Positions 3,098-32,523 of a stretch of DNA of 34,353 nt are shown piece by piece. The notes beneath the pieces were generated by a model. That model made no database searches, was not told the DNA's origin, and saw nothing but the letters and a program-made list of their open reading frames with translations. Each line of letters starts with the position of its first letter. The stretch's first letter is position 1. The position numbers and the translations under genes were made by a program. This DNA comes from Nitrospinota bacterium (GTDB taxonomy: Bacteria > Nitrospinota > Nitrospinia > Nitrospinales > JACRGP01): positions 1 through 34,353 of the forward strand of contig JACRGP010000079.1 in the NCBI GenBank assembly GCA_016217765.1. Direction: 5' to 3'.

Positions 3098-3169
3098 GCG
3101 CTTTTTTGCCCATTCATAAACAAGGGGGAAAACCGCTGGACAACGCGGAAGTTTTTGGAGCGCCGCGTC

Positions 3170-3300
3170 GCCTCCGGGCGCCTGCCCGGCCAGTGTCACG
3201 CTGGCGCGAGCAAAAGTTTCAAATCCCCCTATCCCCCTTTGCAAGGGGGGATAAAACAAAGGCGCTTCTTGCGCCGGGTATTTTTCGCTCCAAGAGACCG
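3170..3300. repeat. C/G-tract dispersed repeat, copy 2
   Basis: This 131-bp stretch (GCCTCCGGGCGC...AAGAGACCG) closely matches 32395-32523 from end to end. Both contain the GCCCGGCCAG-GTCACGCTGGC part, the AAAGTTTCAAATCCCCCTAT box, a C-run/G-run hairpin and a GCGC-rich inverted repeat. A further related G-run block lies at 3360-3396, so most of the 3098-3393 gap is repeat sequence. Confidence 0.75.
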
Positions 3301-3393
3301 GCGGGCCCGTCGCCAAAACTCGAGGCGCCGCCGCGGGTCATCCGCTCATGCAATAAGCCCATCTTTGGCAAAGAGGGGGCAGGGGGGGATTTT

Positions 3394-4535: not shown

Positions 4536-4643
4536 AGGGATGGGATTCTTTTGAATAATAAGACGTTCAATGGAATCGTTTGCGAATATGCCATCAGACA
4601 TATTGTAGCGCCAGGATCCGTCGATCAGGACCGGAGAATTAAA

Positions 4644-4835
4644 CCCGGATTCCGAAGTTGGAAGTTAACGCGAACTCCTTCCTAACATACAAGGGGGAAG
4701 GCTGGGATGGGGGTTGACGGGCGATATGTCGCGGAACTCACGGGTCCAACATATCCGGCATTTTCACCCTCACCCCAACCCTCTCCCTCAAGGGAGAGGG
4801 AATATTGGGGGAAAAACTCAACTTCGGAATCCGGG
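4644..4835. mobile_element. 192-bp inverted-repeat element
   Basis: CCCGGATTCCGAAGTTG at 4644-4660 recurs as its exact reverse complement at 4819-4835. The interior is non-coding and holds an imperfect C/G-tract hairpin (CCCTCTCCCTCAAGGGAGAGGG around 4779-4800). No clear target duplication is seen. It fills most of the gap between the SUMF1-like gene and the chemoreceptor gene. It is most likely a MITE-type or dispersed palindromic repeat. Confidence 0.6.
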
Positions 4836-4924
4836 ACAAATCAATGGGTTAATGCGGGCAACTCTTTTTGTCCGCGCGGTCGCGAACACACGGCGGCCGC
4901 GGACTCAGGACTTCCGGGGTTTTT

Positions 4925-7222
4925 TCAATTGGAAGGGGATATGTTTTTAAAGCGGCTGACCAGCGTTTGCAAGTTGGACGCCATCTGGGCGAGTTCCTTG
5001 GCCGCCGCCTGGGTATTCTTGGCGCCCTCTTTGGCGCTTTCCGCGGAATGCGTGACCGTCACGGCGTTTTGAGCGATCTCCATGCTTTCTTTTGCGGCTT
5101 CCGTGATGTTCCGGCTCATCTCGTTCGTCGTCGCGGTTTGTTCCTCCACGGAACTGGCGATGGAATTGGAGATTTCGTCGATTTGGTTGACGATTTTAGA
5201 GATTTCGCCGATGGACTCGGTAGCTTCATGGGTGTCCGTCTGGATGGCCTGGATCTTCTTGCCGATGTCCTCGGTGGCCTTGGCCGTTTCCTTGGCAAGC
5301 TCCTTGACCTCGTTTGCGACCACGGCAAACCCTTTTCCCGCCTCGCCCGCCCGTGCCGCTTCTATGGTGGCGTTGAGGGCCAAAAGGTTCGTTTGCTCGG
5401 CTATGGAGGTGATGACTTTGATGACCTCGCCGATTTCCCCGCTACTTTGCCCCAACTTGACGATAATCCGGTTTGCCTTCTCGGCTCCCTTGACCGCCAC
5501 GCCAACCACGTCGGCGGCCCTGTTGGAACTGGAGGCTATTTCCTGAATGCTGGCGCTCATTTCCTCCGTGCCGGCGGCCACCGTCTGGACATTTTTACTG
5601 ATTTGATCGGCCGAGACGGAGACCCCGCTTGCCTGGTTGAACGTGTGCTCCGCATTGTTCCCCATTTGATTACTGACCACCGTAAGTTCCTCCGAGGCGG
5701 AGGCGAGACTATGTACAATTTCGGTGACTTGCGCCATGACTTCGCGCATGTTTTCGGCGGATTCCTTCTCCCGTTTCTGCATGGCCACCTTTTCGGTGAT
5801 CGTAATCCAACCGATCATGGGGCCAAGGTAGTTATGGTCCTTGTCGTGAATAGCGCTGACGGAAATATCGAAGACCTCGTTCGCGATTTGGATTTCGGCC
5901 CTATGAGGAAGGTTCTTGGGATCGGATATGATATTCAAAACGCGTTGAGGGTTTTTGTGAAAAATATTGACGGATTGGCCGATAAGATTTTCAACCTTGT
6001 CGGGGAGAAACGTTTCCATCTTCCTTAACGTTCTGGCGGCTTGCGGATTCATGTAACGAAGGATGAAGTTCCGGTCCGCGAACATCACGTTTGAGGTTGA
6101 ATCCTCCACCATCGCTACCAAGCGGGACATTCTGGCCTCGCTTTCGCGCAGGTTTTTTACCATCGTGGCCATGGAACCTCCCAGCGTTCCCACTCCCTCC
6201 TCGCGCAGGTTCGGGTTCTTCAAATCGTTTCTGGCGATGTATTCCGCCTGTTCGGAAATCCACCGCATCTTTTTCACCATCACTTCAAACGCGTCGCCAA
6301 GTTCGCCGGGGCACTTCTCCTTTAAAATGGGATTGTGCAAGTCGTCTTCCGCGATCGCGGAGGCCTGGACCGTCAACCCTCTCAAGCTGACGAGCATTTT
6401 CCCGAAAGCCTTTGCCAGATCGCCCTCCCTCTCTCCGTCCGCGGGAAGCTCGGCGGCCGACTTGAGGTCCATTCCCTTTTTGATCCGCCCGAAAACCGTT
6501 TGGGCGTCGAATTTTCCGGCGGCGATCTCCTCGGCTTGTTGGACGAGACGGTTCAATTGCGTCAATAACCTGTTGAACGCCCTGCCGAGCAAACCGATTT
6601 CGTCGCCGGACTGCATGACCAGGCTTTCCTGCCTGAGGTTGCCCAACGCGATTTGGTCGATAACGTGGATGATTTTATTGAGCCGGGCGGACAGCGCATT
6701 ACTGAAGATAAGCGCCAGGACCACGCCCAATGCAAGGATACCCACGCAAACGGACAATGTGGCGATTCTATTCCGGGAAAGGGTATCGTGCAGGTTTTTC
6801 ATGGACAAGCCCAAAACCAGCTTGCCGTAATTCACGTTTTGATATCGGACGGGAGCGACAAAAAACAACCGTCCGGACATTTCGAATACGTCGTTCCGGT
6901 CCAGCATGTCCCCAAACTTTAGTTGCAGGTTTTCGGGGTTCAACTGCGCGAGCGGTTCGTTTTGTTCGTCGAAAATCGCGATGAACGAAAAATCGGCGTC
7001 GCTTTTGGCGTAGTTCAAGGTTTCGTTGACCGCCGCGAAGTTTTGCGACCCCATCCCGATCCCGGCCCCCATGGCGACCATTTCCGCCATGTTTTTGATC
7101 TTGATGTTCAAGGTCCGCAAGGCATAATCCTTGAGGATTTTGGGATAATAAAGAAAGTTGAAAAGAGAGATCAACAGCAGGATGGACGAAAAAAATAAGA
7201 TCAATTTCTGCTTTATGGACAT
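4925..7222 (-). CDS. Methyl-accepting chemotaxis protein with extracytoplasmic sensor, HAMP and PAS domains
   Basis: A 765-residue chemoreceptor. Residues 7-26 form TM1, 27-152 a periplasmic sensor of single-Cache-like size, and about 154-174 TM2. HAMP follows at about 175-232, then a helical region of HAMP-like repeats (to about 360). A PAS domain (367-480) contains [22 protein letters not shown]. The signalling domain covers about 500-760 with the conserved hairpin tip [31 protein letters not shown] (written here only by its ends: Glu609 to Val639). It would signal to CheA/CheW, which are not in the window. It is the last gene of a minus-strand series after the porin and a periplasmic binding-protein-like gene, which suggests that it senses the same solute. 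No CheR-tethering pentapeptide is seen at the C-terminus. Confidence 0.95.
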
Positions 7223-7316
7223 GGCTGAAAGGGCCTCTTTTCGATTTTGCCGACGGCCAAACGCCCGCCGGCTTCGCGCGGGTTCTTTGGCGTAGGTTTT
7301 CGCGTTTTCCTTGAAG

Positions 7317-7799
7317 TTACAATCCGCCGACCTTTATTACCTTGACCGGGCCGGTGTCGCCCGCCTCGGCGGTGTCAATGATGGCTATTCCCCCCGGGGT
7401 TGCGGAAACCTCGGCTACCGAGTTGTCGGTGGATTTCGGCGGAGAGGAAAACTTTTGTTGAAATACCGCTTTTAAATAGAATTTAGACACCCCGGAGGCG
7501 TCTCCCATGCTGAAAACCTTGGAAGCCAGCGCTTTCATCGCTTCGCCCTTGGCGGGAGGTAAAAACAGCGTTATACTTTCTCCGCCTTCCCAACTTTTTT
7601 TGCCGCCCTGGTAAATTTGTTGCAAGTCTTGCATGGACAAATTGGAAGTTTTATTGCCTTTGTTCACGATAACGACAATTTCCCCCGCGTAAGCCGGAAC
7701 GGCGGCGGAAAAAGATACAAACAGCGCCCAAAAAACAACGCGCGTCAGAAAAAAATCCTTTTTCCCCTTGTTATCTTTAATCATCTCTAGAATCCCCAT
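7317..7799 (-). CDS. Periplasmic phosphate-binding-protein-like (PBP superfamily) protein
   Basis: A short exported protein of up to 160 residues with a signal peptide ([20 protein letters not shown]). The mature part, [34 protein letters not shown] onward (described by its ends), has the shape of single-domain PstS-like proteins: an N-terminal strand, an L-x-x-I-Y/F-x-G-x-x-x-W motif, and GGIAIIDT near the C-terminus. Family members bind phosphate or other oxyanions or serve as accessory exported proteins. The gene is 20 bp downstream of the porin gene, and the chemoreceptor gene follows 94 bp later. An alternative start at Met6 (7784) would also keep the signal peptide and has a GGGGA stretch upstream. 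No ABC transporter permease or ATPase is nearby, so transport is not implied. Confidence 0.82.
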
Positions 7800-7819
7800 T
7801 TTTGAGGTGTAAGTGGAAT

Positions 7820-9010
7820 TTAGAATGCAAACGATATTTGCGCGGTTGCCGCGTTCGACCGGAAAGTGGTCGCGTCCGCGCGACGGAACTCGACTTTGAG
7901 GGCCGCGTAAGGAAACAGTTCGTAACGCACGCCAAACGTATGTTGCTTGGTGTCCTCGACCCCCGCTATTCCGGCAAAGAAGACGTCTCCTGTTTTGATG
8001 TCGAGAAAGTCAAACCGGTAATAGGGTTTGATCTTGTCGAACGCGTAGGCGAGTTGAGCGTAGCCTCCGGAATGAAATTTGCGGACATCCGAATCGTGTT
8101 GGATCGTTTGCAACTCGCCGATCAATTCGAAATGATCGTCCAGATAATAAGCGTGGACTCCGCCGATGACTTCCTCGATTTCCCTGTCTCGACCGGCGAC
8201 GTTCGCATTATTGGGGATGACATCGTGCAGGATATTGGCCCCGAACCCCAGTCCTTTCACGGCATTCGGTTCCAGCGCGAACATGAAGCTCACCTGTTTG
8301 CTGGTATTGTCGTCCTTGATCATCTGGACTTCGTCGGTTATCCTTCCTCTTCCGTTGGCCACGTTACTCATATAAGTCAAGTTGCCAATGCCGGTGTTGA
8401 GATTTCCGGAAAACTCGATTCCTTCAAAGTGGACCGGGAGAATCCCGCCTTCGTCCTCGAAACGGTAGATAATGGGACGTAGGGCGGTAGTAGCAAGCCA
8501 AATGCCGTGATGATACCTTTGATTCCAGAATCCCAAGGCGGTATGCCCGCGTCCCATGGATACGTTGAGCCAGTCGGTATATTCGTATTTCACCAAAACC
8601 CGTTCAACGTCGGGAACGGTCCCTCCGGCGTCGTTAAAATCGAACACGATTTCGCTGAGGAAATTCAATTTCCGGGCGATCTGCGAGGTGACGAATAAGT
8701 CGATGCCGCCATTGGTAAAATTGTTGGCGTTCCTGTCCGTGGCGATGTTCCCGGAGGAGTCTTTTGTTCCTCTATTGTCAAAATCGTATTGAAGATGGCC
8801 AAAACCGCGGAGCTGGAGTTTTGGAGGATCGAAGTCAGTCTGCTCTGAGGGTCTGGACAATCTGTCGACAGTCCCCTTGAGGCTCTTGACTTCTTTTTCC
8901 AAGGCCGCCAGCGCTCTCTCGCTTTCCTCGCCCGCGGAAGCGGTGACGCTTCCAGCCAGGAGAAGATTTAAAAGCAAAAGACCAAAACCAAAACCCCGGG
9001 CAATTTTCAT
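7820..9010 (-). CDS. Outer-membrane beta-barrel porin with N-terminal coiled coil
   Basis: A 396-residue precursor with a signal peptide (GLLLLNLLLAGSVTASAGEE), a short heptad-rich segment (about residues 30-55, ERALAALEKEVKSLKGTVDRL) and a long region of alternating amphipathic strands rich in aromatic residues, ending with SFAF. A terminal Phe is the usual recognition signal for outer-membrane barrel assembly. Coiled-coil-plus-barrel porins of this kind resemble the OprO/OprP phosphate-selective and related families; specificity cannot be told here. The ATG at 9010 has AAGGA seven bases upstream, which supports this start. It leads the porin / binding-protein / chemoreceptor cluster. Confidence 0.87.
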   Translation of the reverse strand: MKIARGFGFGLLLLNLLLAGSVTASAGEESERALAALEKEVKSLKGTVDRLSRPSEQTDFDPPKLQLRGFGHLQYDFDNRGTKDSSGNIATDRNANNFTNGGIDLFVTSQIARKLNFLSEIVFDFNDAGGTVPDVERVLVKYEYTDWLNVSMGRGHTALGFWNQRYHHGIWLATTALRPIIYRFEDEGGILPVHFEGIEFSGNLNTGIGNLTYMSNVANGRGRITDEVQMIKDDNTSKQVSFMFALEPNAVKGLGFGANILHDVIPNNANVAGRDREIEEVIGGVHAYYLDDHFELIGELQTIQHDSDVRKFHSGGYAQLAYAFDKIKPYYRFDFLDIKTGDVFFAGIAGVEDTKQHTFGVRYELFPYAALKVEFRRADATTFRSNAATAQISFAF

Positions 9011-9339
9011 AGTTCGATCCTTATGTTTGTAAAAAGTTGGCGATAAAAAAACGAGTCGGGATAATTTTTATTGCTCAAAATGACAAATGTATTGCCGGTC
9101 ATTGAAAAAAGCCAGCCTATATTAGCAAAGCATTTTTTTTTGCAACGGTTATTTTCCCTTTGATTATATATATTTACATAGGATTCTTTTGTAAATTTTG
9201 AATTCCGAAGGAGGAGCGTGGGCGCGGGCCGCGCAAGCCAGGGAGCGGATTGATTTTTGCCTGAGCGGACGTAATTTGCCGTTTGGCGTGGGGATAAAAC
9301 GCGGGATCCCGGTCTTTGATGTCCGTATGCCGAATTTAG
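9011..9339. other. Intergenic region upstream of the porin gene
   Basis: The first 180 bp are AT-rich with poly-A/T runs and probably hold the porin promoter. On the minus strand a TTGCAA and a TAATAT (9119-9124 on the plus strand) lie 15 bp apart, short of the ideal 17. No gene is seen. The right part leads into the MITE at 9340. Confidence 0.4.
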
Positions 9340-9542
9340 CAGGTTGCTGAAAAAGTCTTTTGGGGTGTCATTCTGAGTCCTTCGGCGGATGTCATGCTGA
9401 AACGGAGCGAAGCATCTCGCTTTTCCCGCCTCAGGTAAACTCCGCGAAGAATCTTGCCCTTTGGATAAATCAAGCGTTTCAGAGATCCTTCGTCGCTAAA
9501 AGCTCCTCAGGATGACGTTGTTCGGACTTTTTCAGCAACCTG
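9340..9542. mobile_element. 203-bp MITE with 18-bp perfect terminal inverted repeats and TTAG target duplication
   Basis: CAGGTTGCTGAAAAAGTC at 9340-9357 recurs as its exact reverse complement at 9525-9542. TTAG directly flanks both ends (9336-9339 and 9543-9546), as expected for a 4-bp target-site duplication. The interior has no convincing coding frame and shows further imperfect symmetry (GTCATTCTGAGTCC near the left, GGATGACG near the right). The element lies 13 bp beyond the stop codon of the mltG fragment. The ends resemble those of non-autonomous derivatives of IS elements. Confidence 0.8.
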
Positions 9543-9555
9543 TTAGTCCGGCGGT

Positions 9556-9891
9556 TCAGGGTTTCCCGGATTTTTTCAACTGGAATTCGGCCACGGCGCG
9601 GTTGTGGTCGATCAGGTTGGCGGAGAACTGGTGGCCCCCGTCCTGCCGCGAGACGAAATATAAATAGTCCGTCTGGGCCGGGTACAGCGCGGCAATGACG
9701 GATTTCAATCCGGGGCTGGCGACCGGCCCCGGCGGCAATCCGATATGTTTGTATGTGTTGTAAGGCGAATCGATGGACAAGTCCTTTTTTCGCAGGTTGC
9801 CGTCGAAGTTCTCCCGCAGGGCGTAGATGACCGTCGGGTCGGTCTGCAAGGGCATCTTTTTCCTCAGCCGGTTGTGAAAGACCGAGGAGAT
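9556..9891 (-). pseudogene. mltG: Endolytic murein transglycosylase MltG, 5'-truncated fragment
   Basis: The frame encodes the C-terminal third of MltG: ISSVFHNRLRKKMPLQTDPT, then YNTYKHIGLPPGPVASPG, AALYPAQTDYLYFVSRQDGGHQF and a final helix. Normal MltG has about 330-350 residues with a membrane anchor, a LysM-like region and a catalytic Glu in the segment just before SVFxNRL. Here homology stops at Ile (codon at 9891). Upstream the frame reads through a low-complexity stretch (PRRPSTSTS) that does not match the ExE/ERxx region. The catalytic glutamate, anchor and start codon are therefore missing and the product would be inactive. The remainder should lie to the right but a kinase fragment on the other strand begins there. 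Confidence 0.82.
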
Positions 9892-9920
9892 CGAGGTGGA
9901 GGTCGAGGGGCGCCGGGGTC

Positions 9921-10583
9921 GTCCATGAAATATTGAATCCCCTCAACATCATCTCCATCCATCTGCAGATGATGATGAAACATGAAACGGGAGACCCCGC
10001 GGCAAAGGAAAGCCTGGCCAAGATGAAGGGCGAGGTGGGGCGGATAAAAAAAATGACCGACACGCTTTTGTCGTTCTCCCGCAAGGGGACGGGAGAGTTT
10101 AAAGCGGTCCACATCAACGGCGAACTGGATTCCGCCATGTCCTTGATCGAAAAGGAATTCCGCCTGGACAATATCGAGATCGTCCGGGACTTCGAGGCGG
10201 AGTTGCCCGAAATATCCGCGGACCTGGACGAGATGCGGCAAGTGTTCCTGAACTTGGCGAACAATGCCAGGCATGCCATGCGGAAAGGCGGAACTCTTAC
10301 GGTAAGCGCCCGGACCCTTCGCGATCGCGGCGGGGATTTCGTGAGGCTGACCTTTGCCGATACCGGCCACGGCATTAAAAAGGAGAACCTGACCGGAATT
10401 TTCGACCCGTTTTTCACCACCAAGCCGGAAGGGGAGGGGACGGGGATGGGACTGGCCGTCCTTTACGGCATTGTTGAAAAACACGGCGGGACCATCAAGG
10501 TCGAAAGCGAGGAAGGGAAGGGCGCGGCCTTCGTCATCGACCTGCCCGTTCTGATAAATAAAAAAGAGGGGGCCGGCCGTTGA
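9921..10583 (+). pseudogene. Sensor histidine kinase, 5'-truncated fragment (HisKA + HATPase)
   Basis: The frame opens at the H-box VHEILNPLNIISIHLQ (phospho-acceptor His at codon 9924) and continues through the dimerisation helices and an intact ATPase domain: N-box QVFLNLANNARHAM, G1 FADTGHGI, F-box IFDPFFTTKPEG and G2 GTGMGLAVLYGIVEKHGG. All sensor and linker sequence upstream of the H-box is missing. Upstream the frame is arginine-rich and meets the mltG fragment on the other strand. The only nearby start codon is a TTG at 9933, inside the H-box helix and after the histidine. It is almost certainly non-functional, unless a fused upstream start exists. The 129-bp gap to the convergent NHL gene has a small hairpin at 10619-10633. 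Confidence 0.8.
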
Positions 10584-10711: not shown

Positions 10712-13700
10712 CTAACGGGGCAGTTCGAATATCTGGATTTTATGGGAGTCGTGGTTCGCGACGGCCAGCGAGGCGCCATGGATGGCCAGCCCGCCGACGA
10801 TGCCGAGGTTCTCGGCGCGCCGTCCGGCGTCGTTGTACATGCAGACGAGTTCAAGGCGCCCGTTCAGGCGCAGGATTCTGTTGTTCCACGAATCCGCGGC
10901 GAAGACGCCGCTTTCCGGGTGGACGGCGATATAAAAGATGTCGCCGCAGGGGACGGGGCCGCTTTTGAAGGCGCGGAGCAGGTTGCCGCCGGCGTCGAAG
11001 CGTTTGAGGGGGGAGTCCGACCGGTCGCCGACGATGTAATCCCCGTTCTCCAGGCAGTGGACGCACGTGGGTTCGGCCAGGTTTTCCGGGTTTTCCCCGC
11101 GTCGTCCGATGGCGCGGACGAACCGGCCTTCGGGGTTGAAGACCAGCAGGCGATGGTTGGCGGTGTCGGCGACCCAGACGTTGTCCTCCCGGTCGACGGC
11201 AATGGAGAACGCCGTCCCGGTTTTTTCCTCCGGGCCGCCCCGGTCGCCGAACGCCAGTATGAATTTTCCCCGCGCGGTGAATTTCTGGACGCGGACGTTG
11301 TGCGAGTCCGCCACGAGGACATTCCCCTTGGAGTCCTCCGCGACCGAGGTCGGATATTGAAACGCGCCCGGGGAGTTGCCAAAGCTTCCGAAGGAGGACT
11401 TGAAAGTCCCCTCTCCCGAGAACCTGCAAATGGAGTTGCCGTTGTGGTCGGCGGCCAGCAGGTCGCCCTCGCGGGTGTACGTCAGCCCCAATGGGAAGAT
11501 GAATTTGCCCGCCGGGGGACCGCACCTGCCGAAATGGCGTTTCAGTCTCAATCCGCCCCCCCGGGTTTCCGGGTCGAGGGGGCCGAAGGCCGAGACGCCG
11601 CCGGTCAACCGCAATAATTTCCGCAGGAAGTTGCGCGTCCGGTAACGGCGGTCGAGATTGAATTGAATCTGCTCGAAAGCCCATTGGGCGCGCGCGACCC
11701 CGCGCTTTGTGTCCAGGGACTTCTCGAAGTTGTCGGCTGATAGATTGGCGCCCAGTTCCTCCGCCTGGTTTTCCAGGGACGCTACTTCCAGGTAGCGGGT
11801 CTTTCTCCGATCGTGCAGGCCGGCGATTTCGCTCTCCAGCGTCGAGTCGTATTCTCGCAGTTTTTTCAGGAACGATTCGAGGAGAGGACCGCCTTTCGCG
11901 GACGGTTGCAACGAGAACGCGGCGCCGCCCAGGGTCAATCGCGACAGGTTCCGCGCTTCGTTGATCCGCAGGGTCATGAGCATACGCCGGACCAGGTTGA
12001 TTTGAAAATCCACGGCTTGGGAGGTCTTGACGATGGGTATGGGGGCTTTGGGGTCCCTCGTGTCCGCCTTCCGCAAGGCGTCGTCAAGGTCCAGTCTCTG
12101 TTCGCGCAGTTGGTCGAGTTGCGCGAACAGCTCGACATTTTTGTCCTCGTAGGCTTTCTGGTATTGAAAGACCTCGTCCAGGCGCCGGGCGGTCTCCTGG
12201 GCGTCGCCGTCCCAAGGCGCATGGATTTCGTCTCCGCACAGCAGGCCGTCCGCCGTTTGCTCCATCGGCGTCCCTTCGATCGCCAGGGAGCGGAAAATGT
12301 CGTCGTATTCCATGTCCTCGGAGTCGAAGGACAGGGGCGAGAAATAGTCGTCCCTGAGGGCGTGTTTTCGCGGTCCGCCGCTTTGCGGGAGTCGAAAGGC
12401 CGAGTCCATGAGGTCCAGCAAAAGCGAGTTGAGTCCCGAGTGATCGCCCCAATCCTCCTGGGTGCGCAGAAGAATCCGGCCCAGGGGACGGGAGCCTTCC
12501 GGCGTCGCGAAAGTCTCCTTCAAGAACCCCGCGAAAGCCGGGGCGTTGGCGGGGTCCAGAAGCGCGGCCTTGCACATTTTCAGCAGGACGCGCAGTTCGA
12601 AATGGAAATGCTTGAGGGCGTCCAGAATCTGGACGTTTGCGTGGAATTTCAGGCGGAACTCCTCCCACTTTTTCCCGTCGTCTTGCGGCGCGGAAAACGT
12701 CCGGACCATGGCCTCCTCGTTTTTTTCCTTTTTGTCGATGTGGAGGTCGATCGTTTCGCGGATGTCGCCCAGGCGCCGGCCCAGCGTTTGCCGGAGACGC
12801 TCGTTGCCGGCGTCCGGCAAGGGCCGGGAAAAGAGCGCGAACGCGTACTCGCCGAATTTCTCCGCGACCGTCCGGTAGTCGTGGAACAACCCGCGGATTT
12901 CCCTGTATCGCTCCTTGTGGGCCTTTTCCGCAAGATGGAAGCTCCTGTCGAAGACCCTCGGGTCCTCGGTTTCTTGCAGGATGGCGGCTTCCTTCGCGAA
13001 CAGTCTTTGCAGGAACTCGGAGCCGGCGTTTTCCCATTCCCGCAAACAGGACAGGACTTTTTGCCGGGATTCCCTCAACAGATCGTCGAACGGGCCCAGC
13101 CCTTTCAATAGAAGGTCTTCGTTGTTCCCGGCAAAGTCCGAGGCCAGGCGATTCAAAACCAAGGGCAGGTTTTTCCGCCAGCCGGAAGGGGCGTTTTCCC
13201 CGGTTTCCGTTTTTTCCTCCAAGAGAGCTTGAAACGATTCCTCGTACTTCCGGGCGGCGGATTCCAAGTCGCCGCACTCCTCGTACAGTTGTCCGAGCGA
13301 GGACAAGGCGAGGCCCCGCTCGCGATTCAACAGGACCTGGTTTTCCAGAATCGCTTCCTCGGTAAGGACGGGGGCTTTGAAACGCAGGATTCTGGTGTCG
13401 AAGGTCAGGGCGGCATAAAGCGTTCCGTCGGGACCCGCCAGGGTCAGGCCGGGCATTTTCAACGGCGTCGAGGCGTCGGCCTCGGCGAGGGCGAAGAGGA
13501 ACTGGCCTTGGGAGGTGAAAGCCTGGATGCGGTCGTTGTTCAGGTCCGCGACGAACAGCATGCCTCCGGGACCGGAGGTCACGCACAGCGGGTATTGAAA
13601 TTGGCCCGGCCCCGCGCCGCGCTCGCCCCAGGTCAGGACCTGCCGCCATTCGGAGTCGAATTTTACGATCCGGTGGTTGCCGCTGTCGGCGACGTAATAC

Positions 13701-15772: not shown

Positions 15773-15838
15773 GGTCCGAGGGACAAGAGCGTTTATACGT
15801 CGAGCCTATTTATCATCCCATCCTCGTTTGCGCAAGCT

Positions 15839-16076
15839 TAACCTGAATATTGCATGAACGACTGACCCGCGGAGCGCTTCGAATCCTGGGACCAAGGTCC
15901 GCCAGACGTTTGAGACAGAAGGCGCCCAGTAACAAAAAGCGCCTTGCCTTTGTCCCCCCTTGCAAAGGGGGGTAGGGGGATTTGAACCTTCTGTTCGCGG
16001 TCATGTCGCGAATCCCCCCGGCCCCCTTTACAAGGGGGAGCGATTCCATTCCTTTTCTCATACAATATCCGGGTTA
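15839..16076. repeat. C/G-tract dispersed repeat, copy 3, with 19-bp imperfect inverted ends
   Basis: TAACCTGAATATTGCATGA at 15839-15857 pairs with the reverse complement of TCATACAATATCCGGGTTA at 16058-16076 (16 of 19 positions). Inside are two C/G-run hairpins, a GCGC inverted repeat, and a block at 16007-16041 that is the reverse complement of 32255-32289. This is the most complete copy in the window and defines the ends of the family. It is a non-coding element about 238 bp long between rlmM and the kinase gene. Confidence 0.7.
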
Positions 16077-32212: not shown

Positions 32213-32254
32213 GACGGACCTTGTCCGCATATTGGTGACGAAAAGACTAGATTT

Positions 32255-32523
32255 GCTCCCCCTTGTAAAGGGGGCCGGGGGGATTCGCGCTACTCGCCGT
32301 AGGGGCCCAGGCTGGGCCTGGAGCCAATGCCGTCTCCAGCTTGCGCGGAGGCGGGAATCGTGTTCCGGCGATCGCGGAGCGTCATCGCCGCATTGCCTCC
32401 GGGCGCTTGCCCGGCCAGCGTCACGCTGGCAACCGAAAGTTTCAAATCCCCCTATCCCCCTTGCAAGGGGGGATGAAACAAAAACGCTTTTTAGCGCCTG
32501 GCATTTTACCGGCCAACAGACCG
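32255..32523. repeat. C/G-tract dispersed repeat, copy 4 (two blocks)
   Basis: The left block (32255-32289) is the reverse complement of 16007-16041 from copy 3. The right block (32395-32523) is nearly the same as copy 2 at 3170-3300. Between them lies about 105 bp of unrelated GC-rich sequence. The stretch is non-coding. Confidence 0.7.

Follow-up and report, generated by a model that had tools for sequence, protein, structure and literature searches.

A head-to-head junction between an mltG 3′ remnant and a 5′-truncated histidine kinase gene in a draft Nitrospinota genome: a probable scar of illegitimate recombination

Two facing gene remnants and the filler between them

The window, which is the whole stretch of DNA that was analysed (34,353 nucleotides), is contig C198 of a 2.29-Mb draft genome in 200 contigs (G000; GenBank assembly GCA_016217765.1, contig JACRGP010000079.1), with a completeness of 71% and an estimated contamination of 0.26%. 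The host is an uncultured groundwater-type bacterium, and the kinase described below has its nearest named relatives among the Nitrospinota. Comparison within the genus was made with a single genome, G001, and both assemblies are incomplete. An Rfam scan of the window gave no match.

Positions 9559 to 9892 on the minus strand contain the 3′-terminal remnant of an mltG (YceG) gene, about 111 codons long, with a DNA identity of 96% to contig C71 of G000 and 95% to contig C141 of G001. The translation of this region reads ISSVFHNRLRKKMPLQTDPTVIY... up to the stop codon, which is found at the position of the C71 stop codon, and the reading frame is open throughout; the C-terminus diverges (SGKP in the window piece versus PKKS in the C71 protein). 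The piece resembles YceG (PF02618) in having the last third of the domain, above the Pfam cut-off (positions 169 to 274 of 275), but differs in lacking the first 168 profile positions and in being a spare copy. The edge of the homology on this strand, first placed at 9891, was measured at 9892 and is sharp: beyond it the C71 gene reads GATCAATTTGCG and the window reads GATCGAGGTGG.

Positions 9909 to 10583 on the plus strand contain the 3′ remnant of a histidine kinase gene, the closest homologues of which are 57–59% identical. Both domains of the transmitter module were found, namely HisKA (PF00512, 39.0 bits) and HATPase_c (PF02518, 88.6 bits). In a tblastn comparison with about 30 relatives, the kinase homology consistently started at residues 24–26 of the frame opened at 9840, corresponding to window positions 9909–9915, and the DNA homology to a paralogue started at 9912. 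The kinase homology proposed for this strand is therefore real, but it starts at 9909–9912, which is 9–12 bp to the left of the 9921 first given. The homologues read ...SEKLAGIGQLSAGV(C)HEILNPLN, and the portion preceding the H-box is missing from the window kinase, in which no in-frame start is met before a TTG at 9933, and the H-box His codon (9924) lies upstream of it.

A functional MltG would have a full YceG domain with the E-K-E-T motif region. The IEKET motif is present in the intact C71 copy, upstream of the break point, and is missing from the window piece, the first ATG of which is at 9855; the Glu of this motif is taken to be the catalytic residue, as in E. coli MltG. Similarly, a functional sensor histidine kinase would have a sensor part and an H-box with a start codon upstream of it, and the window remnant, although it contains a transmitter module, has neither the sensor half nor the H-box lead-in. 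Both genes are thus 5′-truncated at one point, as had been proposed, and the accompanying judgement that a simple deletion is unable to produce such a head-to-head junction is right. From their sequences, neither remnant should yield a working enzyme: the mltG remnant because the catalytic Glu region is absent, and the kinase remnant because the sensor half and a start codon before the phospho-accepting His are absent.

The two homologies are separated by a filler, GAGGTGGAGGTCGAGG, that spans 9893–9908 (up to 9911 at most, in the longer form GAGGTGGAGGTCGAGG(GGC)), is therefore 16–19 bp in length, and is homologous to neither mltG nor the kinase. The similarity between the filler and the mltG contig was at chance level, and neither parent runs on into the filler. 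A 27-mer search, exact or with up to three mismatches, found no copy of it elsewhere in G000 or G001. The repeated TCGAGG motif noted earlier is present in two copies, at 9891 and 9903, and no promoter-like site was found near the junction. Two possible sources of the filler were considered and rejected. The first was an out-of-frame kinase lead-in coil (frame 9842, EEIEVEVEGRRG), but the relatives carry ...SEKLAGIGQLSAG, with no DNA similarity. The second was a template elsewhere, but neither genome contains a copy, and the longest common run nearby, 10 bases at about window position 11570, is unconvincing.

The intact mltG and the age of the extra piece

A search for an intact mltG elsewhere in the genome, which had been suggested as a check, was positive. 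Contig C71 of G000 carries a complete gene of 340 codons, starting at MSAVKK, in a stop-free frame, and its alignment with G001 is colinear across 2374 bp (94.8% identity). Positions 9571–9892 of the window (minus strand) were identical to the 3′ end of the intact gene (C71, positions 2008–2329) at 309 of 322 bases (96%). A YceG profile search of all contigs of the assembly gave two matches, the C71 gene and the 3′ piece in the window, and no orphan mltG 5′ half was found in this 71%-complete assembly. The DNA of the piece matched 11 of 12 relatives and was present as a single copy in each of those 11. Because the intact mltG on C71 is colinear with G001, the piece in the window is, on the evidence of these alignments, an extra copy rather than one part of an essential gene that was split in two. 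Immediately beyond the intact mltG on its downstream side, from about position 2345 of C71, G000 differs from contig C141 of G001, with a methyltransferase-like gene in G000, so that the DNA flanking mltG at its 3′ end is variable in its own right.

Over 336 aligned bases, it was found that the window piece had 19 private differences, the C71 gene 2, and the G001 gene 5. We polarised the differences using ten more distant mltG sequences as outgroups. At one site all ten outgroups matched the window piece, with another state common to C71 and G001, and at a second site seven of the ten matched it against the state common to C71 and G001. These two polarised sites suggest that the piece split from the mltG lineage before the split between the G000 and G001 species, and FastTree support for this early-split grouping was weak (0.59). 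A recent copying of the C71 gene was rejected as the source of the piece, as the outgroup polarisation suggests an older split.

The piece also departs at three sites (I to L, I to V, and S to G) from bases found in nine or ten of the ten outgroups, and such changes at near-invariant residues are as expected of a decaying piece under relaxed constraint. Silent changes made up 10 of the 19 differences, compared to 5.3 expected (p = 0.02), although the numbers are small and the main case does not rest on them. This excess hints that the piece may have spent part of its history, perhaps much of it, as a functional gene in some related lineage and, together with the open frame, leaves room for an origin in a third strain. 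Neither the mltG remnant nor the kinase remnant contains a frameshift or an internal stop, which counts against reading the junction as a non-functional scar.

The repeats and the variable segment around the junction

Just after its stop codon, the mltG remnant is directly adjoined by a MITE-like repeat at 9337–9545 with 21-nt terminal inverted repeats (9337–9357 and 9525–9545, 95%). Copies of about 90% identity are present in G000 (C196, 2507–2707) and G001 (C122, 537–740). The inverted ends are TARCAGGTTGCTGAAAAAGTC, with possible TA/TTAG target repeats, and related ends are found on other repeats (C171 and C16). To the left of this element, in a segment with a GC content of 0.51–0.54 versus about 0.61, lie an outer-membrane-protein-like gene, a phosphate-binding-like protein, and an MCP. 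The first of these has no Pfam match and is called a porin solely from the character of its sequence. This lower-GC cluster of the MCP, the short phosphate-binding-like protein, and the outer-membrane-like protein occupies 4925–9010, and a cluster related at 65–70% and in the same order is present on contig C89 of G001, beside further kinase-like sequence.

The G001 genome matches the window at 92–97% up to about position 4554 (weakly to 4643), and the match resumes from 10557. Despite these 92–97% identical outer flanks, no orthologous DNA for window positions of about 4643 to 10556 was found in G001, where the matches to this segment consisted of 65–76% relatives elsewhere, repeat copies, and the G001 mltG. 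The final 27 nt of the kinase frame (10557–10583, plus strand) are retained in G001, and a repeated element replaces everything to the left of them: contig C36 from position 141 onwards is 97% identical to the window from 10557, and its first 140 bp are a repeat with three further copies in G001. No orthologous kinase was found in G001 beyond these last 27 nt, with the repeat element inserted there. At the point in G001 equivalent to 10557 a repeated element ends, and another contig begins with the same element. The end of this element was seen at positions 1–140 of C36, 1–141 of C34, and 5799–5939 of C18 in G001, and at 1779–1877 of C118 in G000; it interrupts the G001 kinase tail, and two contigs end at it.

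Mobile or repeat elements adjoin both remnants. As judged from the two assemblies, both G000 and G001 have either lost or damaged the kinase gene at this locus, in different ways, and the segment around the junction is variable and repeat-rich and is not the same in these two members of one genus. Short C-rich palindromic repeat families of the CCCCCTTTGCAAGGGGG type are present in the window at 638–801, 3161–3355, 15838–16042, and 32225–32510. In G001 they number dozens of copies, and several coincide with contig ends or synteny breaks.

Interpretation of the junction

We interpret the junction as a non-functional scar of illegitimate recombination, and not as a new system, with a probability of roughly two-thirds. 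Illegitimate recombination has been argued to be a plausible explanation for much of the small-scale variation in bacterial genomes (PMC2884548), and the absence of overlap between the homologies, the short filler, and the donor-type gene that is intact elsewhere fit the joining of a loose DNA end by this process. In such a course of events, a broken DNA end, belonging either to a duplicated segment or to DNA received from a close relative, would have joined the kinase gene without homology in a repeat-rich, variable stretch of the chromosome. The outcome would be the arrangement in the window, namely an mltG 3′ copy head-to-head with a 5′-truncated kinase gene via a filler of 16–19 bp, with the complete mltG kept elsewhere. 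The junction is similar to the remnants of illegitimate recombination described previously (PMC2884548) in that it is a short variable segment with sharp ends, has no homology at the join, and lies where sister genomes are not alike. It is dissimilar in that there are two unrelated, facing 3′ remnants, one of which is abutted by a MITE-like repeat. No Ku homologue (PF02735) was found in G000 or G001, both of which are incomplete assemblies. We therefore do not claim non-homologous end joining (NHEJ), and this result lends no support to the classical bacterial NHEJ pathway.

An assembly chimera had been named as the main alternative, rightly in our view. In this explanation, a contig that carries mltG and comes from a third, closely related strain was joined to the kinase contig, and a draft assembly with such a join would likewise show two genes truncated at a single point (cf. 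PMC7299287). Consistent with a chimera, the assembly is divided into 200 contigs, the mltG piece is 4–5% different from both known mltG alleles and has an open frame and the mild excess of silent changes, and the segment from about 4643 to 10556 receives no independent confirmation from G001. However, a de Bruijn-graph chimera arises when two sequences are joined at a k-mer present in both (cf. PMC7299287), of about 20 bp or more, and such a common k-mer is absent from the window join, where the homologies end at 9892 and begin at 9909–9912. A chimera formed by k-mer collapse is a poor fit, as there is no overlap between the mltG and kinase homologies, and the 16–19 bp between them, present nowhere else in G000 or G001, argue against this commonest type, although not against chimeric library molecules or parents unrepresented in the assemblies. 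The low estimated contamination (0.26%) and the alteration of the mltG piece at residues that are near-invariant in the ten outgroups also speak against a chimera. Taken together, these results indicate that the junction is probably real and that a chimeric contig is unlikely, while still the strongest of the alternatives.

Very unlikely, in our estimation, is that the adjacent MITE-like element carried the mltG 3′ piece to this site along with itself. If this were true, gene fragments would have been moved by very small elements in an unusual way, through MITE-mediated transduction of flanking host DNA.

The original prediction preferred an inversion or translocation with breakpoints in the resident mltG and in the kinase gene, leaving a reciprocal junction elsewhere. 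This would explain the head-to-head truncation at one point, but we consider it highly improbable, because C71 carries an intact resident mltG that is syntenic with G001 (over 2.37 kb at 95%) and the YceG search found no mltG 5′ half, and hence no second junction with such a half, in the 71%-complete assembly. No kinase 5′ half was identified in that incomplete assembly either, although one may exist.

Least credible of all is that the two truncated genes are functional short proteins expressed from a common divergent control region: it is true that each of the two frames is open and that HisKA and HATPase_c are still matched in the kinase piece, but the homologies are only 16–19 bp apart with no promoter-like site nearby, the first kinase start comes after the H-box His, the first mltG ATG is at 9855, and the mltG catalytic region is absent.

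The significance of the junction, which we regard as a probable scar, is low, but it corrects a possible misreading of G000 as having a broken mltG. Because the true mltG is intact on another contig, neither a loss of MltG function nor a large inversion should be claimed from the window. The junction also points to a variable segment, rich in repeats, in which two genomes of the same genus differ.
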